A stretch of 24,175 nt of DNA from Candidatus Tectimicrobiota bacterium (GCA_016193065.1 JACPSX010000108.1:1-24175); one strand, 5' to 3'; numbered from the stretch's first letter, positions 2,646-23,343 are shown. Notes: generated from the letters alone by a model not told the origin. Made by a program: numbers and translations.

Positions 2646-2750
2646 TCAAGACAGCCCGCGGCGGCGGCGCAGGAACCATTCGGCGCACAGGACCAGGGTC
2701 AAGAGGGCAAATGCCCAGGGGGTCTGCCCCAACTTCAGGCGGCGCTCGGC
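2646..2750 (-). pseudogene. Displaced copy A of the 3' end of the VWA/GATase-like gene
   Basis: On the minus strand this reads the last 34 codons plus TGA of the gene at 7547-9829, from AERRLKLGQTPW to FLRRRRGLS. Compared with the intact tail (7547-7651) there are 9 base differences in 8 codons, all synonymous, and the stop codon is kept. Similarity ends abruptly on both sides: just past the stop on one side, and before the AER codons on the other, where the frame reads DRPV instead of RLL. Such silent divergence shows the copy evolved as part of a functional gene elsewhere, not as a local duplicate left to drift. It faces the truncated ImmA/IrrE-like gene across the junction at about 2751-2763. 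Confidence 0.9.
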
Positions 2751-2763
2751 CACCGGGCGGTCA

Positions 2764-3141
2764 ACCCTTTGTAGTGATGGCATTGTTTTTGCCCAGCAAC
2801 ACTTTGGGGTGAGCTATTTCGCCATGCTTTATCTCCTTCAAAACCTTGGCTGGATCACGAAGAAGGACCGAGAACGGCTACAAGCCTTCAAGCCTAGTGA
2901 GATAGCCAGCCGTCTGGGACTGGAGATCGATCGCGAAGAAGAAGGACCGCCCGTCCCGCTCCAGTTTGTCCGGCTTGCACTGGAAGCTTATCGCGGGGGC
3001 AAGATTTCCCTGGGGAAGTTTGCTAACATGCTGCGCATGTCTCGTCAGGAAGCTATGGGACTGCTAAAGTCCCTCAACATCCCACTGAGACTCGGGACTG
3101 AAGATAAGGAGGCGCTCAAGCGGGAGCAGGAGAGTGGGTGA
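2764..3141 (+). pseudogene. 5'-truncated ImmA/IrrE-type or HTH regulator, C-terminal fragment
   Basis: The open frame runs uninterrupted from the repeat junction through 3141. Before the GTG at 2809 it reads SDGIVFAQQHFG and then VSYFAMLYLLQNLGWI. This matches the pattern 'A..FGVS...L.YRL..LGLI' seen at the end of the metallopeptidase domain in ImmA/IrrE proteins. The final part, FVRLALEAYRGGKISLGKFANML followed by SRQEAMGLL, is the small helical tail common in these regulators. The catalytic HExxH region and any N-terminal HTH are absent because the gene is cut at the junction with copy A. ImmA/IrrE proteins normally cleave or bind HTH repressors in mobile elements and toxin-antitoxin loci. 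A short protein of 110 aa could still be made from GTG 2809, but I regard it as a remnant. It suggests the element upstream of hicAB was once longer. Confidence 0.65.
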
Positions 3142-3189
3142 GGGAAGAGGCGGTCCGGCCGATCGGCCCGTTGTTCTTGATAACTACAG

Positions 3190-3321
3190 GTGATTGGGGT
3201 AATTGCCCAGTCACTAGAAAAACATATAACATATTGATTTATATATTGTTAAATTCAGATTGAATTAATAGTACTAAATTTAGTATCATTCCTTGCCGAC
3301 CTAATGGAAGAATAGTAGAAT
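3190..3321 (+). promoter_or_regulatory. AT-rich promoter/operator region of the hicAB operon
   Basis: A sharply AT-rich stretch between the ImmA-like remnant and hicA. It contains a perfect 14-bp palindrome, TACTAAATTTAGTA (3272-3285), 37 bp before the hicA ATG, and flanking TAACA/TGTTA half-sites around 3230-3252. HicB antitoxins with a ribbon-helix-helix domain are known to repress their own promoter by binding palindromes, so this is the likely operator. The -35/-10 elements are ambiguous in so AT-rich a sequence. The ribosome site for hicA is weak (GGAAG about 11 nt upstream). Confidence 0.5.
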
Positions 3322-3567
3322 ATGGGTCAGTGGGAGGAATACTTAGAGAAAATTCGCAATAACCCCCGTAATGCCCGCTTTGACGATATTCTCAACTTGC
3401 TTAGGCACTATGGGTTTCACATCAGGACAGGAAAGGGCTCCCACTATGTTGCCTCGCGTGGTCGCTACAGAATAGTCATCGTAAGAGAAAATCCGGTCAA
3501 GATCCCATATGTTCGACAGTGCATCAATGCGATAGACGGCGTGACCGAGGAGGACTCAGATGAGTAA
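3322..3567 (+). CDS. hicA: HicA-family mRNA interferase toxin
   Basis: An 81-aa protein with the dsRBD-like HicA fold pattern: helix (residues 19-31, RFDDILNLLRHYGF), the signature GKGSHYVA (37-44) with catalytic His41, then beta strands YRIVIVREN and the C-terminal helix YVRQCINAI. HicA toxins cleave mRNA and tmRNA in the cytoplasm and are held inactive by HicB. The charged tail DGVTEEDSDE is a little longer than in minimal members. The stop overlaps the hicB start by 8 nt (ATGAGTAA), so translation of the two is coupled. Toxin-first order and the small size are typical of hicAB. I see no missing key residue, so it is probably functional. Confidence 0.9.
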   Translation: MGQWEEYLEKIRNNPRNARFDDILNLLRHYGFHIRTGKGSHYVASRGRYRIVIVRENPVKIPYVRQCINAIDGVTEEDSDE

Positions 3568-4201
3568 GGATCTAGGTTATTACATGAAATTGGACTACCC
3601 TGTCACCCTTAAGAGGTGCCAAGAGGACGGGGAAGTTTATTTCTTGGCGGAAATTTCGATTCTGCCGGGCTGCATGTCGCATGGTAAAACCCCAAATGAG
3701 GCAATGGAGATGATCGAAGGAGCCAAGGAAACTTGGATTCGCTCTTTCCTGGAAGATGGCTATGAAGTTCCCGAGCCCAGAGATGAAGAGGAATATAGCG
3801 GCCGATTCGTCGTGAGAATTCCGAAATCGCTCCACAAGAATTTGGCCGAGATGGCTAGGCGTGAGAACGTGAGTCTCAATCAATTGGTTGTCAGTTTGTT
3901 ATCAGCTAATGCAACTAGAGAAGCCTTCAACTTTCAGGAAGCCGCAGGAAGAGACCGATGGGTTAGGGAGCTAGTCAAAAATTGGCTACCTTCTTCTTGC
4001 GTTGTATCTCAGGATCCAAGTGGCCACTTTTTGCTCAGTATAGATCCAACATCTCATTCGGGAGGAGTAGAAACATGGGATGCTCAACTCACCAAACCAA
4101 TCCCGAAGCTCGAGAATCCGTTCTTTGCTCTGCAAAAGATACAGGCACCATACTCCACAACTGAACAATTCGGAGAGACAAAGCACCCGGAGCAGGTATA
4201 G
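3560..4201 (+). CDS. hicB: HicB-family antitoxin with ribbon-helix-helix domain and long C-terminal extension
   Basis: A 213-aa antitoxin. Residues 1-75 form the degenerate RNase-H-like HicB domain (YPVTLKRCQEDGEVYFLAEI, LPGCMSHGKTPNEAM, AKETWIRSFLEDGYEVPEP). This domain binds HicA and blocks its active site. Residues 81-115 (GRFVVRIPKSLHKNLAEMAR, then NVSLNQLVVSLLS) are a canonical ribbon-helix-helix DNA-binding segment, so it should repress its own promoter, probably at the palindrome 3272-3285. Usual HicB proteins of this architecture end at about 110-140 aa. Here about 98 further residues (116-213) follow, tryptophan-containing at first and low-complexity and polar at the end. An extended antitoxin tail beside a third gene recalls chaperone-dependent toxin-antitoxin systems, but the comparison is by architecture only. 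The next gene starts within the stop codon (1-nt overlap). Confidence 0.9.
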   Translation: MSKDLGYYMKLDYPVTLKRCQEDGEVYFLAEISILPGCMSHGKTPNEAMEMIEGAKETWIRSFLEDGYEVPEPRDEEEYSGRFVVRIPKSLHKNLAEMARRENVSLNQLVVSLLSANATREAFNFQEAAGRDRWVRELVKNWLPSSCVVSQDPSGHFLLSIDPTSHSGGVETWDAQLTKPIPKLENPFFALQKIQAPYSTTEQFGETKHPEQV

Positions 4202-4908
4202 TGAAAGATATTTCCAATCTCACAATTGAAAGAACATTTTTATTCCGTCAAGACTCTATTCCGTTTGCTGGTCTACTGGCTCCAGGTACGATTGAGCGAG
4301 CCTTTCAGCCATTCAGATTCGGAGTCGCCGGAACAATAATTCAAGAGCCTTCCAGTGGTAAGATCCTTGAGCTCCAGATGGCTAACGGGAGTTTCGATGT
4401 AGATAAGGAGAAAAGTCTCATTGTGGGTAAACTAGACATCTCTGAGCGGAAGATTCACTTTACTATCGGGTCGACTTTTGAAGAAAGTGAGAAATTCTTT
4501 CGTGCGGTATTAGATAGCATAAGTGGGGCTACTCAAGTCTCAATGTCGCCTGGAACTGATATCTTGGTCTCGACTATACAGACCTCATGCGCAGTTACAC
4601 TCGATTTTTCCTTCGAGACCTTCTTTTCTCCGAGATTCCTTTCATTCCTTCAAGGGCAGGCACAACAGTTAATGTCCATTTCAGTGGCCGATGTTAACGT
4701 AAGACCTTTTAAATTCTCTGCTGAGGTCAGCTATGCTGTGAAAGATGAGAGCCTTCACAAACACAAAATCATGGTCTCCAACAAACCCCTAGTTATTGAA
4801 CCAAGAGTTAACACGCCTTTCGAAGAGAACCGCTTTTTCACGTCCTCTCCCTGCGATCCCGAAACGCACTTTAATCTACTTCGAGCACTTGAAGACTCGA
4901 TGAGATAG
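4201..4908 (+). CDS. Unknown protein, third gene of the hicAB operon
   Basis: A 235-aa protein of no family I recognise, starting at GTG 4201 that shares its first base with the hicB stop, so it is translationally coupled. There is no signal peptide or membrane segment. The sequence is rich in predicted beta strands (GVAGTIIQEP, KSLIVGKLDI, KIHFTIGS, CAVTLDFSFETFF, FKFSAEVSYAV) and ends in a short helix (HFNLLRALEDSMR). Tight coupling to hicA-hicB and shared AT-richness argue that it belongs to the system, perhaps as a chaperone or modulator acting on the HicB extension, or as cargo. It does not visibly resemble SecB, the chaperone of known three-part systems. A weak inverted repeat follows (AAGGGGAA 4926-4933, TTCCCCTT 4958-4965) that may help end transcription. 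Confidence 0.7.
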   Translation: MKDISNLTIERTFLFRQDSIPFAGLLAPGTIERAFQPFRFGVAGTIIQEPSSGKILELQMANGSFDVDKEKSLIVGKLDISERKIHFTIGSTFEESEKFFRAVLDSISGATQVSMSPGTDILVSTIQTSCAVTLDFSFETFFSPRFLSFLQGQAQQLMSISVADVNVRPFKFSAEVSYAVKDESLHKHKIMVSNKPLVIEPRVNTPFEENRFFTSSPCDPETHFNLLRALEDSMR

Positions 4909-4973
4909 CGTATCCCCCCGAACTCAAGGGGAAGCCCTCCTACAAAAATTTCAGGATTTCCCCTTTCCAGTCC

Positions 4974-5036
4974 TCAGGACAAGCCCCGGCGGCGGCGCAG
5001 GAACCATTCGGCGCACAGGACCAGAGTGAGGAGGGC
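4974..5036 (-). pseudogene. Displaced copy B of the 3' end of the VWA/GATase-like gene
   Basis: The minus strand reads ALLTLVLCAEWFLRRRRGLS and TGA, the last 20 residues of the gene at 7547-9829, without a single amino-acid change. Against the intact tail there are 7 base differences, all silent, and its silent pattern also differs from copy A. Upstream of the matching codons the frame reads PA and similarity stops. Directly beyond the stop the flanks of the three copies diverge. It separates the hicAB block from the AbiE block. Confidence 0.88.
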
Positions 5037-5087
5037 GGCGGGCGCTGCTTTATGTGGGTGAACGCTTCATCCGTGGTAGAGGGTTTC

Positions 5088-5933
5088 TCAATCCTCGTCC
5101 CACGGTGCGATATTGAGCGCATCAAGCCACGCGGTGACCATTTCGTACGCCCGGCGCTCGATGATGGCCCGCTCTTCCGGGTCCGTAATCTCAAGAAAAT
5201 CAGCGACCCATTTCGGTCCCGCGTGATCCACAGAAAGGAATTGGCTCCGGATCTTCCCCAGCCCTTCGCGCACGAGCCGGTTCGAGATGTGAGGACGGAA
5301 CGCTTCTGCCAGGCCGGCGGTGCCTCCGGGATAGTGGCGCACGCAGTAATCGATGTCGTAAGCGTCCTTCTCCTTGAGACGATCCGCCAGAGCCATCCCC
5401 TTCATCACCAGCCAGGGAACGATCCCGGCCACACGGAACGTCACCCGGTCGCGTCCGCCGCCGGGGAGCTCTCCTTCCACCGAAACCTGGACAGGATTGG
5501 AAAAGGCCAGATCACACCCTCGTGCCTTCCGGGCACGGACGTCCTGTACGGGTTGAGTCCGGTGGCCGGGGCCGGTGCCTCCATACTCTCCGGACAAAAG
5601 GTCTACCTCGATCACGACGGGGTCACGCCCGGGCAGCGGGATCTCACGGAAGAACCGGAACGGCTGGTCCGGGTCCTGCCGGTACCCTCGGGAAGCGAAT
5701 GTCTCAAGAATCGTCCGGTAGGATTCTTCAGGAATTCTCCTGAAGTCCAGTGCAAGGTCGATGTCCAGAGTGCCTGCATGAGGTTCTGACGCTTGCGGAA
5801 AGAGCAGGGGAGGGACCCAGCCCCCAACGACCACCGTATGATCTCTGATCTGCCCCATGAGATGGATGAGCTCGATCAGGACGGACCGGCAGGCTTCCAC
5901 AGCCTCCGCGCTGTAATCCCGTTGGGTCACCAT
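5088..5933 (-). CDS. AbiEii-like nucleotidyltransferase toxin of a type IV toxin-antitoxin pair
   Basis: A 281-aa protein with a DNA polymerase beta-type nucleotidyltransferase core. GGW (37-39) stands for the family's GS/GG motif, TLDIDLAL gives metal ligands D57 and D59, and IEVDLL offers the third carboxylate D111. MKGMALADRLKEKDAYDIDY (178-196) matches the K...R..KD..D conserved region of AbiEii/AbiGii toxins. Known AbiEii-type enzymes transfer nucleotides to RNA acceptors and stop growth; which acceptor is used here is unknown. It is the second gene of its operon and overlaps the antitoxin gene by 7 nt, a common order. The C-terminal third (220-281) is helical and less conserved. All catalytic residues appear present, so it should be active. 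Confidence 0.8.
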   Translation of the reverse strand: MVTQRDYSAEAVEACRSVLIELIHLMGQIRDHTVVVGGWVPPLLFPQASEPHAGTLDIDLALDFRRIPEESYRTILETFASRGYRQDPDQPFRFFREIPLPGRDPVVIEVDLLSGEYGGTGPGHRTQPVQDVRARKARGCDLAFSNPVQVSVEGELPGGGRDRVTFRVAGIVPWLVMKGMALADRLKEKDAYDIDYCVRHYPGGTAGLAEAFRPHISNRLVREGLGKIRSQFLSVDHAGPKWVADFLEITDPEERAIIERRAYEMVTAWLDALNIAPWDED

Positions 5934-7003
5934 CGCGGCCGGAGCCTCTGCTCCAGGATGAATGTGGCGGCTTCTTCTCCCCTCCCCTTGTACCCCGCCA
6001 GGTCGAGGTAGAGCTGGATGTCGCTGGCGACTGTCTCCCCGTTCACCCTCCTGGCGGCATAGAAGAGGCCCTCGTCAAATGGGTTCAAAATCGTGAAGTT
6101 TGCTCCGGAGGGGACGGGCTTCCATCCCAGCGCCTTGGCTAGCTTCGCTGCATCACTCTCCGCATAGGCGAACCCTCGCGAGTAGCGCGCAAAGGGCGCC
6201 GTGCGCGCAGCTCCCGAGAAGAGGGTGAACGCATAGCGAATCTTGTTCTTGCGGCAGTAGTCGGCAAGCGTCCGTTCGATCTCGGGAAGCTCTCCAGAGG
6301 CAAAGCAGTCGAGCGGGCTGCTCTTCAGATAGGAATAGTTCTCCGCCCACTGCCGGAGAAGCTCCTCGGGCCGGGTCAGGCGCAACCCTTTGTCTTCTTC
6401 CCGGGCGTACTCCAGATCGAGAAGCCGCTGCTTCACCTTGAAGGCCAGCCCCAGGCTCACCTGAGCCTTCTGCGCCATCGCCTGCACCTGCCAGGATCGT
6501 TCTGCCTCTTCCAGGAGCACCCGCAGAACCCGACTTGCCTTCGGGGTGAAGAGGTTTCGCAACGGGCGCCGCTCGACCTTCGGGTTCGAGAACCCCTGCC
6601 GCTCGATGAACACCTGGCCAAAGGCGAGGCGGCAGTCCCCCGCCTGATCCACGAAGCCGACTCCCTCCTCCTTGCAGATCTCCCGTGAGCGGGGGCCGAT
6701 GTAGGGAGCCGCCACGACGCCGTACGTTCTGGCGCCCGAAAGACAGGTCCGGAGCTGCTGGATTGCCCCTCGGATCAGGCGGGGCTCCCCACTCCCCTTG
6801 GCTTCAACGAGGACCCGCCAGCGTTCTCTGCCTGCCATCAAGTCAAGGACGAGGTCAACCCGTCTGCCCTGAAGCGGAGCGCCCCTCTTCCACCCCTTGA
6901 GACGGACGAAGGGCACCTGCGAGAGGATGGTTTCAATGCTTTCCTCTATCTGGGATGAGGGTGGCTCGGGAAGAGAAGCGATCGACTTTGCAAGTCCCGG
7001 CAT
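5927..7003 (-). CDS. AbiEi-family antitoxin/regulator with PD-(D/E)XK-like N-terminal domain
   Basis: A 358-aa protein from ATG 7003, which has GGGGGAA at a fitting distance; an in-frame TTG at 7075 would place the start inside the operator array and is less likely. Residues 35-125 look like a restriction-nuclease fold: RRVDLVLDL (D50), RVLVEAKG (E67, K69), a Gln-bearing helix AIQQL, then GVGFVDQAGDCRL. Residues about 145-205 are a winged-helix segment (ASRVLRVLLEEAERSWQVQA..). The C-terminal end DIQLYLDLAGYKGRGEEAA is the hallmark of AbiEi-type antitoxins. This combination corresponds to the AbiEi_2 (former DUF2186) group. AbiEi proteins neutralise the toxin indirectly and repress their own promoter by binding inverted repeats, which are visible upstream here. 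Whether the nuclease-like domain cleaves DNA is unknown. Confidence 0.8.
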   Translation of the reverse strand: MPGLAKSIASLPEPPSSQIEESIETILSQVPFVRLKGWKRGAPLQGRRVDLVLDLMAGRERWRVLVEAKGSGEPRLIRGAIQQLRTCLSGARTYGVVAAPYIGPRSREICKEEGVGFVDQAGDCRLAFGQVFIERQGFSNPKVERRPLRNLFTPKASRVLRVLLEEAERSWQVQAMAQKAQVSLGLAFKVKQRLLDLEYAREEDKGLRLTRPEELLRQWAENYSYLKSSPLDCFASGELPEIERTLADYCRKNKIRYAFTLFSGAARTAPFARYSRGFAYAESDAAKLAKALGWKPVPSGANFTILNPFDEGLFYAARRVNGETVASDIQLYLDLAGYKGRGEEAATFILEQRLRPRW

Positions 7004-7048
7004 CCGAAATTCCCCCGACCGGGAATGCCTCCGGTCATGGCGAGGCAA

Positions 7049-7170
7049 TTTCACTGAGGGAGCACCTTTTCCCAACCGGTGAAAGCCTACAATTGAATGA
7101 AACCCGAGTCAAGGAGTTTCACTGAATCGTTTTGTTTCACCAAATGGTGAAATTAGCTATTTTAGTGAAA
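7049..7170. promoter_or_regulatory. Six TTTCAC/GTGAAA boxes, including a perfectly symmetric four-box operator
   Basis: TTTCAC occurs at 7049, 7117 and 7135 and its complement GTGAAA at 7079, 7147 and 7165. The central four (7117-7122, 7135-7140, 7147-7152, 7165-7170) are symmetric about one axis at 7143/7144, with start spacings of 18, 12 and 18 bp. The inner pair is TTTCAC-CAAATG-GTGAAA, itself near-palindromic throughout. The two outliers sit in the leader and across the -10 region. AbiEi repressors are known to bind inverted repeats cooperatively at their own promoter; I infer the same here. Confidence 0.7.
7084..7112 (-). promoter_or_regulatory. Predicted sigma70-type promoter of the AbiE-like operon
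   Basis: On the minus strand TTGACT (7107-7112), a 17-bp spacer and TAGGCT (7084-7089) form a fair -35/-10 pair, about 80 bp ahead of the preferred ATG. One TTTCAC box overlaps the -10 edge and the symmetric four-box array lies immediately upstream of the -35, an arrangement suited to repression. Confidence 0.5.
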
Positions 7171-7252
7171 CACCCCCTTTGCAAAGTGCTGTCGAATCTG
7201 CTCTGAAAATGGCTCGTTCACCCCCTCCCTGCTCCAAGACTGTGTCATAAGT

Positions 7253-7285
7253 CCGTTCATGGTTCGACTGGCTCACCACGAACGG
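7253..7285. repeat. REP-like imperfect palindrome inside restriction-gene remnant
   Basis: CCGTTCATGGT (7253-7263) and ACCACGAACGG (7275-7285) form an 11-bp stem with one mismatch (G-U in RNA) around an 11-nt centre TCGACTGGCTC. Its composition, GTTCGTGG...TCGAACCATGAACGG, is of a type scattered through many bacterial genomes as REP-like units. It truncates the hsdR-like reading frame; the stop codon of that frame lies inside the palindrome. Confidence 0.6.
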
Positions 7286-7546
7286 GCATCCGGCCCATGC
7301 GCGACGAGCACCCGCTCGATGGCTTCCTCGAAGCTGCGTTCGGAAACATCAACCATGGGCTACCTCCCTCGCCTCCCCGAGCTCGGTCCGGCGATCACCG
7401 CGGCGGCCCCGGCGGTCGCAAGTTCCGAAAGCGGCACCACGGTCACGCGCCGCTCGAGGTCATAGCGGCCATGAAAATCGAACATCGACAGTTCATTTTT
7501 CATGGTGTCAGAAGGGTCCATCGGAATAAATCGGAGGCGGATTACA
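7286..7546 (-). pseudogene. Remnants of a restriction-modification locus (hsdR-like 5' end and end of a preceding gene)
   Basis: On the minus strand a first frame reads FIPMDPSDTMKNELSMF, then HGRYDLERRVTVVPLSELA, and ends with TAG at 7360-7362. Three bases later ATG (7354-7356) opens MVDVSERSFEEAIERVLVAH, then GPDA, which resembles the N-terminus of type I restriction subunits HsdR. After about 24 codons this frame enters the REP-like palindrome and stops at 7273. I see neither a complete methylase nor a helicase, so the locus is a fragment. The preceding frame is not identified. The remnant begins directly beyond the stop codon of the VWA/GATase gene, at the proposed insertion boundary. Positions 7171-7252 hold nothing further that I recognise. 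Confidence 0.4.
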
Positions 7547-9829
7547 TCACGACAACCCGCGGCGGCGGCGCAGGAACCACTCGGCGCACAGGACCAGGGT
7601 TAGCAGGGCGAAGGCCCAGGGGGTCTGCCCCAGCTTCAGGCGGCGCTCGGCCAGCAAGCGGAACTGAGAGCGGGACTCCAGCAGGCGGCGGATCTTGTCG
7701 ATGCCGCCCCGGCTGAGCTCCTCGGGAGAAACCACAAGGCCCTGGGAGGAGCCGGCCAGGCTCTGCAGCGTTTCCCGGTTCGGGAAGCCGCTGGCAGCCT
7801 CCAGTGTGCCGCTCTGGACACGAAAGGAAAATTCGCTCCTACCCGGATTCTCCGGCTGGCCTCGGGTCTCCACCCGTACCCGATATTCGCCGGAGTTGCC
7901 GGGCCGCCAAGTGGCAATGAAGTCACCGGCCTTTTCTCCAGGCTTGGGAATCAGGGAGACGTTCTCCCCGCCGGGGCCTTGCAAGGACACGCTCAAGGTG
8001 GGGTTTTTGGCCGGGCTGTAATCCCGGTCCAGGGCGCGGATGCGGATCGTCACCTCCTCGCCGGGCTCGTAAACGGCCCGGTCCGCCTTTGCCACCAGAG
8101 GATCAAGCCCCGGATCCCGGATGAGCCAGCGCACCATCCGGTGCACGAACTGGAGGTAAGGGCGGTTGCTCTGATCTCCGCCGGCGGCCGTGAAGTTCCA
8201 GCGCCAGAAATAGTCGCTCATGAGAGCCATCGTTCGCCCCTTCCCGTAAGTGCCGACGACCAGCACGGGCTCCGCGTTGCCTTCGCCTCCCAGACCGCGC
8301 CCGGTGGCCAGGAGAATGGCGCCGCTCTTCAGACGGTCCACCCGGTTGTAGCCGTCCAGGCGCGGAAGCTGGTTCCAAACTTCCGCGGGGGAATGGCCGT
8401 TGGAGCCGAATCGGGTCATGGGGTGGTTTGTCCCTTCCCGGGTCAATTGCACGGAGATGGAATTTTTCTGGTAGGTGGCCTGGGAGTCTCCCATCCGGAC
8501 CGGCAGGATCTCCTCGATGGGCGTGCCGGCGTAGCCGCCGTCCCGGAAGGAACTGGGTCCACCGAGCATGGCGAAGGCGCCTCCCTTCTCCACGAATTTT
8601 TTAATGTTCTCCAGGTAGTGGAAGGGGAAGTAGGGGAGATACGTAAAGTTGTCGAAGACGATCAGGTCGAAATTGTCCAGCTCCTGGGTAAAGAGGCGGT
8701 CCGTGGGGAAGGGGATCAAGCTGAGTTCGTTTTCCGGAACATTGACCTCGTCCAGAGGAGTGCGCAGGATGACGAAGGAGACGAGATCGAGGGTCGGGTC
8801 GCTTTTGAGAGCCTCGCGCAGGAAGCGGTAGTTCCAGGAAGGGGAGCCGCTGACGATGAGGGCCCGGATGCGGTCCCGCAGCACCCGAACGGTAAGCTGC
8901 ACCTGATTGTTGCCGGCGATTTCCTCTTCGGCCCGCAAGGGGGTGCTTGCCGAGAGCTGGTGGTCGCCCACTTCCTTGGGGGTGAGCCTAAAACTGACCT
9001 GTGCCTCACCCTCCGCAGGCACGGTCACGGTCTTGGATTGCAGGATTCTGTCTCCCCGGCGCAGGATCAGGGGGACCGAGAGTTCCGGATAGCCGTGGTT
9101 GCGCACGGAGAACTTCAGATCCAGAGGAATGTTCACGAAGCCAAGAGGTGGAACGTTCAGGGAAGAAACGGAGAGGTCCCGGAACTTTTGCGGGTTGCCC
9201 ACAGGAATGGCAACGATGGGAACCCCCCGCGGAGCCTGAGGAGGAGCGCCGTCGGTCTGTGCGCCGTCGGAAAGCAGGAGGACGCCGGCCAGGGGTGCTT
9301 GCTCTTCCCGGCTCTGGTCCGTAACCTGAGCGAGTGCTTTCTGGATTCGCGTGGCACTCCCTTCCGCTCTCGCTTGGGCCAGGTCTTTCGCGGAGACTCT
9401 CTGCAGGTCTTCATTGAACAGGTAGAGTTGCGGGGTAAAGCGGCCCTGCAGCTCGTGCAAGAGGCCTGCCTGTGAGTTTCCCAGGGCCTGGCGGGCCAGG
9501 TCAAGCCGGGTTGCGGAGGGGTTCCCGTCCTTCAATCCCATGCTGCGGGAGTTGTCGACCAGCACCGCCACCGCAGGCACCAGCCTCTCGCGCTCCTGGA
9601 TCAACAGGACGGGGCCCAGCAGGAGCCCGAAGAAGAGGGCAAGCGCCAGAGTTCGCATGCCGATCAGCAGCGCCGAGTCTTTGCGGCCCACCCTGTGCAG
9701 GATCTTCACGAACTGGAAACCCAGAAGAGCGCTGCCGCCAAGCGCCAGAAGGATGAGGACCCAACCGGGAACCAGGGACTCCCAGGCCAGGGCTGATGTA
9801 CTCCAAATTGTAGGCGCAGAAGAAGGCAT
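7547..9829 (-). CDS. Membrane protein with VWA domain and GATase-like domain
   Basis: A 760-aa protein, last gene of the envelope operon. Two membrane helices (about 22-42 and 54-76) precede a von Willebrand A domain with an intact MIDAS start VDNSRSMG (D92, S94, S96). A middle part has Ig/CARDB-like strands. A class I glutamine-amidotransferase-like fold follows (IRALIVSGSPSWNYRFLREA, DNFDLIVFDNF, FVEKGGAFAMLGGPSSF, GTYGKGRTMAL), which in this family lacks the amidotransferase nucleophile. A last helix (PWAFALLTLVLCAEWFL) is followed by RRRRGLS at the cytoplasmic end. Such proteins accompany MoxR-DUF58-BatA clusters and are thought to act in assembly or surveillance at the membrane; the substrate is unknown. 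It begins 1 nt after the DUF4159 stop. Its final 34 codons are the sequence duplicated at 2646 and 4974. Confidence 0.85.
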   Translation of the reverse strand: MPSSAPTIWSTSALAWESLVPGWVLILLALGGSALLGFQFVKILHRVGRKDSALLIGMRTLALALFFGLLLGPVLLIQERERLVPAVAVLVDNSRSMGLKDGNPSATRLDLARQALGNSQAGLLHELQGRFTPQLYLFNEDLQRVSAKDLAQARAEGSATRIQKALAQVTDQSREEQAPLAGVLLLSDGAQTDGAPPQAPRGVPIVAIPVGNPQKFRDLSVSSLNVPPLGFVNIPLDLKFSVRNHGYPELSVPLILRRGDRILQSKTVTVPAEGEAQVSFRLTPKEVGDHQLSASTPLRAEEEIAGNNQVQLTVRVLRDRIRALIVSGSPSWNYRFLREALKSDPTLDLVSFVILRTPLDEVNVPENELSLIPFPTDRLFTQELDNFDLIVFDNFTYLPYFPFHYLENIKKFVEKGGAFAMLGGPSSFRDGGYAGTPIEEILPVRMGDSQATYQKNSISVQLTREGTNHPMTRFGSNGHSPAEVWNQLPRLDGYNRVDRLKSGAILLATGRGLGGEGNAEPVLVVGTYGKGRTMALMSDYFWRWNFTAAGGDQSNRPYLQFVHRMVRWLIRDPGLDPLVAKADRAVYEPGEEVTIRIRALDRDYSPAKNPTLSVSLQGPGGENVSLIPKPGEKAGDFIATWRPGNSGEYRVRVETRGQPENPGRSEFSFRVQSGTLEAASGFPNRETLQSLAGSSQGLVVSPEELSRGGIDKIRRLLESRSQFRLLAERRLKLGQTPWAFALLTLVLCAEWFLRRRRGLS

Positions 9830-22864: not shown

Positions 22865-22869
22865 TCCAT

Positions 22870-22949
22870 GTAGGGGCGCGATTTATCGCGCCTTAGTTTG
22901 TCCTGACTGCCGGCAGATTATTGTCGGGCGCAATGAATTGCGCCCCTAC
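22870..22949. repeat. Pair of inverted REP palindromes (REPIN-like)
   Basis: Two units face each other. REP 1 (22870-22892) begins with GTAG and has a perfect 8-bp stem GGCGCGAT-TT-ATCGCGCC (22875-22892). REP 2 (22926-22949) has a 9-bp stem GGGCGCAAT-GA-ATTGCGCCC and ends in CTAC, the complement of GTAG. A GTAG tetranucleotide before the palindrome is a described hallmark of REPs processed by RAYT transposases. The last bases of REP 2 supply the stop codon of the adjacent RAYT remnant. Confidence 0.85.
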
Positions 22950-23343
22950 TTAAGACTCGCTAACCAGCGATCAAATCCGTCCTCGCCTTTCCGTCGTGGA
23001 TTCTCCCGGTCGAGTTCCCAGCGCAATGGATTGGTCGCAATATATTCCCGCATGCGGTTTAAGGATTCTTCATTGCGAATGATGTGCTCGAAATGGTTGC
23101 ATTGCCACTCGAATTTTGGGAATTCTGCCAGTCGGATGAGACGGGTAGTTACTGCCTTAAAGTACGATGTTCCCCAGTGTAGGGGCGCGATTTATCGCGC
23201 CTTCGTTTGTTCTAACTATCTGTACCACCCGCCCCGCATCGTTCAATCCCATTTTCTCGTCTTCCACCTCGCCAAATGAATTCTCTCGATTACAGGTACA
23301 GATCGTCACGAAATAGGCACCGGCTTGGGAGTAGTCATACCCC
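22946..23343 (-). pseudogene. RAYT (Y1 transposase) pseudogene, split by a REP and lacking its HUH motif
   Basis: On the minus strand 23343-23202 reads GYDYSQAGAYFVTICTCNRE, then NSFGEVEDEKMGLNDAGRVV, the family N-terminus. After the REP at 23179-23201, in another frame, 23176-22946 reads WGTSYFKAVTTRLIRL, then WQCNHFEHIIRNEESLNRMR, EYIATNPLRWELDRENP and GEDGFDRWLASLK with stop TAG. The tail carries the catalytic tyrosine (REYIATNP) but the central HUH block, about 80-100 residues, is gone and replaced by the REP. No start codon is obvious. It is therefore dead. It belongs to a different RAYT subfamily from the gene at 157-759. Nothing else is seen in this interval. Confidence 0.8.
23179..23201 (+). 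repeat. Third REP unit, inside the RAYT pseudogene
   Basis: Identical over its full length to REP 1 at 22870-22892 (GTAG plus the 8-bp stem), and the next bases (CCTT/CCTTC, then GTTTGT) also stay similar. It sits exactly where the transposase frame is broken. Confidence 0.85.

Follow-up and report, generated by a model that had tools for sequence, protein, structure and literature searches.

Second copies of gene ends around toxin–antitoxin and defence blocks in a Candidatus Tectimicrobiota genome suggest stepwise addition by recombination without a dedicated integrase

Integron cassette arrays hold small cassettes rich in toxin–antitoxin (TA) genes in series, with repeated sites between them. 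Elements that target the 3' end of a gene are exemplified by e14, whose integration in icd leaves a displaced 163-bp icd end (PMC6379469), and the minimal mobile elements of Neisseria are whole-gene cassettes, some of them for defence, that are exchanged between conserved genes via homologous recombination without mobility genes (PMC3082526). In an Escherichia coli assay, most recombinants were single crossovers involving circles, which duplicated 109-950 bp of a gene end (PMC3240628). Here we analyse a 24,175-nucleotide stretch of an uncultured Candidatus Tectimicrobiota bacterium (GCA_016193065.1, JACPSX010000108.1:1-24175; hereafter the window), in which the 3' end of a gene for a VWA/GATase envelope protein occurs three times, with an AbiE-type block and a HicAB block set between the copies. 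TA and defence blocks fenced by second copies of a gene end suggest that the blocks were added one after another by recombination, with no dedicated integrase.

The locus bears on an open question, namely how small TA and defence modules without mobility genes reach new chromosomal sites. In the open subset of the literature that was searched, no report was found of TA modules with diverged ends of host genes as their borders. The dataset consists of one metagenome-assembled genome (MAG; 294 contigs, 86% complete), the sole genome of its phylum in the comparison set.

Three copies of one gene end around two blocks

The intact gene, which is the final gene of a conserved operon, and the three copies of its end (tails A, B and C) are as follows:

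7547..9829, minus strand: intact VWA/GATase envelope gene (GATase1_like, MG2); open reading frame (ORF) of 760 aa, PF07090 and PF01835 above cut-off
7547..7651, minus strand: tail C, the present 3' end of the VWA/GATase gene; 34 codons plus stop
4974..5036, minus strand: tail B, displaced copy; 20 codons plus TGA, 7 silent differences from C
2646..2750, minus strand: tail A, displaced copy; 34 codons plus TGA, 9 silent differences from C

From the gene outwards, the array is ordered gene, tail C, AbiE-type block, tail B, HicAB block, tail A. A reading made from the sequence alone (the sequence-only reading) had taken the tails for cargo borders, and this is borne out: the 3' end of the VWA/GATase gene forms a direct repeat at the block borders, with the gene end itself kept functional. 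Homology between the tails has a sharp onset at the 34th (A) or 20th (B) codon counted back from the end and stops no more than about 2 bases past the stop codon, and the nucleotide similarity of tail A extends to ~2760. A blastn search of the whole MAG returned these three copies only (E 1e-58, 2e-38 and 9e-18; next match 0.17); the left edge of the window is the end of a 27,119-bp contig, and copies further left would fall outside the assembled sequence.

Codon-by-codon comparison on the minus strand upheld the earlier claim that the same tail is present three times with silent differences only. Tails A and C differ at 9 bases in 8 codons (synonymous divergence, dS, 0.40; non-synonymous divergence, dN, 0), B and C at 7 bases in 7 codons (dS 0.54, dN 0), and A and B at 7 bases in 6 codons, every change being synonymous. 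Under random substitution, the probability of an all-silent outcome is ~3e-5 for A and C and 4e-4 for B and C, in comparisons that are not fully independent. The tails show no amino-acid change against ~6 expected at a dN/dS of 0.2 (p 0.003), which could reflect a constrained membrane helix or a constraint at the DNA level.

Orthologues of the VWA/GATase gene are present in Tectomicrobia, Nitrospinota and Myxococcota, the nearest being 39-40% identical. The gene had initially been cast as a special defence-island hotspot, with extra tails predicted at the far border of orthologous loci. This idea found no support: none of 57 loci of other genomes with downstream sequence has a second tail beyond the orthologue, scores there fall within the range of shuffled tails, and there is therefore no sign of a conserved hotspot. 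Within the MAG, in contrast, at least nine unrelated genes behave alike.

Copied gene ends and toxin loci across the genome

The VWA/GATase gene is not alone in this MAG: near at least nine other genes lies an orphan copy of the 3' end that has diverged from the original, and in one gene it is the 5' end that is copied, so that the arrangement recurs at about ten genes. The first two extra cases were found on contigs with integrase remnants; 80 contigs (766 kb) were then sampled blind to content, together with targeted contigs, and analysed by nucleotide and protein scans with manual inspection. A CofH-like gene has a 172-bp tail copy (90.7% identity) on the far side of a block with HicA; for a Na/sulfate symporter gene, the tail copy is 204 bp long (81% identity) and follows a PemK-bearing block. 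Degenerate integrases occur at both loci, within the CofH block and next to the stop codon of the symporter gene.

On contig C27 (L148, G000:C27, 13931-18287), two copied gene ends fall within 4 kb. The end of an S-adenosylmethionine (SAM) methyltransferase gene, an identical 54 bp running through the stop plus 15, is found again on the other side of a 0.8-kb Unstab_antitox/ParE module; next come BrnT and then an arylmalonate decarboxylase/racemase-like gene with its own copied end. On C202 (L266, G000:C202, 224-4497), there are three copies of a CoxS-type end, which keep a HEPN module and a VapC-type PIN gene apart; UPF0150/HicA lies outside the third, and the array resembles that of the window. 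In both arrays, the displaced tail closer to the gene is shorter than the one further away (20 vs 34 codons in the window, 26 vs 43 on C202; n=2). An RsmB/F-like tail flanks a PIN gene on C113 and a TPMT-like tail flanks a VapBC-like pair on C73, while further copied ends belong to an LLM-type oxidoreductase and a NOV_C protein; the names CoxS, TPMT and LLM were read from the peptide by eye. The second AbiE locus of the genome lies between copies of a 48-bp repeat with 96% identity. The pattern is not confined to 3' ends, since the start of a glycosyltransferase-like gene is copied on C8 (L129, G000:C8, 251-1419; 132 bp, 89%), with a Phd/VapC pair between the copies. No motif common to the tails or junctions was detected beyond the level of shuffles, and no recombinase that the blocks have in common was found. 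Some protein-scan matches were rejected as not being gene ends, namely repeats between cytochrome-like ORFs (L146), internal repeats (L128) and some matches at L167 and L190 in which the ORFs are apparently antisense or spurious.

Pooled over 11 genes (one pair each), dS is 0.52 and dN is 0.10, giving a dN/dS of 0.196, which shows purifying selection between the copies. In a dead local duplicate beside a functional copy, dN/dS is expected to drift to about 0.5 or higher; most of the separation therefore took place while each copy still formed the end of a working gene. Divergence of the tails in functional orthologues, as first proposed for the VWA/GATase gene from its silent-only changes, is supported by the dN of 0 there and by the pooled value, and it suggests that the copies come from different genomes, which may belong to a single related lineage.

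Applied to 1.73 Mb from other genomes, some of them fragmented MAGs, the identical scan found no tail copy and returned one gene-start copy and one internal copy. The former, in a Tectomicrobia control (L228, G047:C17), is a copied N-terminal piece (5568-6839 and 8310-8519; 70 aa, 96%, 1.5 kb apart) and is the only comparable start copy among the controls. In 766 kb of this MAG there are 22 low-copy direct-repeat pairs, vs 10 in 1.73 Mb of controls.

Toxin families were also listed genome-wide first, ignoring repeats, which gave 41 loci (8 ParE, 25 PIN and 8 HicA). A local low-copy direct repeat spans 12 of these (9-10 with stricter criteria), compared with 1.5-6.6% of random positions and 3-9.5% of positions outside large ORFs; the enrichment at toxin loci has p values from 3e-4 to 1e-8 depending on the criteria, with random-position controls that cannot fully match TA neighbourhoods and a limited total control size. 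The repeats around toxin loci are often gene ends again. Of the 11 chromosomal TA loci of E. coli K-12, one lies within repeats, which are multi-copy, sit beside rayT and look like repetitive extragenic palindromic (REP) sequences, and none of the 11 has a gene-end copy; this comparison is small and non-significant alone (Fisher p 0.25). The toxins of this genome gave no match when compared with the control loci.

Cargo and neighbours in the window

The first block (between tails C and B) and the second block (between tails B and A) contain the following features:

5927..7075, minus strand: AbiEi-type antitoxin/regulator, first block; PF09952 above cut-off, plasmid relatives annotated AbiEi at 33-38% identity
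5088..5933, minus strand: AbiEii-type nucleotidyltransferase toxin candidate, first block; PF08843 at 19.7 bits, just under the cut-off of 22.5
7237..7288, no strand assigned: REP-like palindrome belonging to a dispersed family, first block; pattern match, near-identical copies on several other contigs
2809..3141, plus strand: UPF0175-family protein, second block; PF03683 above cut-off
3322..3567, plus strand: HicA-like toxin candidate, second block; PF07927 at 17.3 bits, under the cut-off of 27, directly before HicB
3560..4201, plus strand: HicB-family antitoxin of 213 aa, second block; PF05534 and PF15919 above cut-off
4201..4908, plus strand: uncharacterised 235-aa protein, second block; ORF with no Pfam, PADLOC or NCBIfam match

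The first block has a G+C content of 0.61; its AbiEii-type candidate overlaps the AbiEi-type gene, and small unidentified ORFs are also present. The second block has a G+C content of 0.47, and the order of its candidate hicA and hicB genes fits HicAB. The first block had originally been described as AbiE plus restriction, and the restriction part found no support: a type I restriction remnant near 7273-7503, suggested by an HsdR start seen by eye, was rejected, as Pfam and NCBIfam are silent there and no plasmid sequence matches the 27-aa peptide.

Pfam and PADLOC scans found no recombinase or integrase in the two blocks, in agreement with what had been seen by inspection, and PF00589 is absent from the window's contig; no mobility gene was found in either block with Pfam, PADLOC or NCBIfam. 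Comparison of the tail with viral contigs and phages, and of the block with plasmids, gave no meaningful match. The genome has no integron integrase match above the TIGR02249 cut-off; only fragments resembling integron-type integrases, below the cut-off and mostly decayed, occur on G000 contigs C49, C98, C188, C131, C48, C41, C73, C103 and C145.

The palindrome at 7237-7288 is of the CCGTTCGTGGTGAGC..GTCGAACCATGAACGG type, and a REP-associated tyrosine transposase is encoded at 157-792. Left of tail A lies an Rhs-core fragment (1358-2281) with an apparent signal peptide and a variable C-terminal part, and the small uncharacterised ORF after it (878-1339) could be its partner. Near the right end of the window is a 40-bp direct repeat, 92.5% identical (22869-22908 and 23178-23217).

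Possible origin of the arrays and relation to known systems

The explanation that we tentatively favour, and to which we would give slightly less than an even chance, is that blocks were added serially at gene ends by recombination with DNA of diverged relatives, with TA addiction holding the inserts. The extra tails would then be scars of successive additive insertions. Incoming DNA would carry a TA or defence block together with the gene end of that relative and would recombine with the resident gene end, so that the resident gene ends up complete and hybrid while a second copy of the end remains at the far side of the insert. Repetition of such an event at one gene would yield the order seen in the window, and the architecture of the array matches the serial insertion at a gene end that the sequence-only reading had proposed. 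Either of the two blocks may have arrived first, as a new block could recombine with any tail of the array.

Most likely, the address would be homology to whichever gene end the insert carries, the fixed site of one recombinase being less likely. Two routes can be envisaged: a circle containing the block and the gene end could enter by a RecA-type single crossover, or a linear piece could be anchored by homology and joined illegitimately at its other end (homology-facilitated illegitimate recombination), duplicating rather than deleting. Homology-driven addition would require no recombinase, and any gene would be usable. Mostly 3' ends would survive because inserts in the middle of a gene would break it, and addictive TA modules would be over-represented because inserts between repeats tend to loop out, a loss that these modules could resist by killing cells that lose the insert. 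A further and more doubtful proposal is that of homology-addressed cassettes, in which TA modules would move between related genomes as circles with the last 20-100 codons of one host gene, the gene end doing the work of an integrase-specific att/attC in both excision and insertion, and in which modules would stack in arrays held by their own addiction.

Several observations weigh against homology-driven addition. The homology, 54-318 bp and often 80-90% identical, is short and diverged for RecA; such repeats are missing from 29 of the 41 toxin loci, as well as from BrnT on C27; integrase remnants lie inside two other blocks (the CofH and symporter loci); the VWA tails contain a stretch of 12 codons in which no more than one varies (p ~0.008, selected post hoc), and this could represent an att core; and the material is one MAG, which leaves donor, order and mobility conjectural. 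The last two sequence features also fit the main rival, which we consider possible though unlikely: tyrosine-recombinase elements, carrying a replacement tail in attP, would have inserted at the 3' ends of several genes and been left without an integrase at a later stage, and the tails would be attL and attR, as with e14 in icd. Such site-specific islets would likewise account for the decayed integron-integrase-like fragments scattered through the genome and the identical 54-bp repeat around the 0.8-kb ParE module. However, the targets are about ten unrelated genes with no common motif, the blocks are as small as 0.8 kb, one case is a copied gene start, no recombinase is present in the window's blocks or on C67, and the genome has no serine recombinase of the PF07508 family. 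Of the two, homology-driven addition is preferred.

Old local duplications, in which a tandem copy of a gene or its end arose within the lineage and then decayed while TA genes moved in between, appear improbable. Direct repeats beside a parent gene are what tandem duplication leaves, and the copies of the arylmalonate decarboxylase/racemase and NOV_C genes have no shared stop in the alignment; yet dead copies are expected at a dN/dS of 0.5-1, against a pooled 0.20 here, no amino acid differs among the VWA tails, and homology ends repeatedly in the last codons of the gene. An assembly artefact that strung co-occurring strain variants into one contig deserves still less credence, for although the source is a MAG and copies at a dS of ~0.5 would fit a co-occurring relative, the window is free of Ns, identical stretches between tails are below 40 bases with junctions in otherwise unrelated sequence, so that joining through common k-mers would not be expected, the same arrangement with enclosed toxin genes is seen on many contigs, and two fragmented control MAGs show none.

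Collectively, one genome offers about ten putative scars, each naming a recipient gene, a boundary and the divergence of the donor, and displaced gene ends can flag insertions where no integrase or tRNA site is visible. If congeners confirm the pattern, gene ends would be the address of an integrase-free traffic in cassettes, with addiction deciding which inserts survive.

Among known systems, e14-type elements at the 3' end of icd share the replacement 3' end and the displaced old end at the far border (PMC6379469), whereas here the window's blocks contain no integrase and measure 2-3 kb (0.8 kb elsewhere), the targets are many and unrelated, and no core is shared. Integron arrays are alike in their serial, small, TA-rich cassettes separated by repeats and differ in that the repeats described here are ends of a local host gene, locus-specific and without a common site motif. 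Minimal mobile elements likewise lack mobility genes, as do the window's blocks, but they swap cassettes between two flanking genes, whereas here inserts are added and one gene end is duplicated, sometimes in arrays. A further likeness is to single-crossover or homology-facilitated illegitimate recombination, which places foreign DNA beside a gene and duplicates 109-950 bp of its end (PMC3240628); such recombination is known as a laboratory outcome, whereas here it would be a recurrent and naturally retained route for TA modules.

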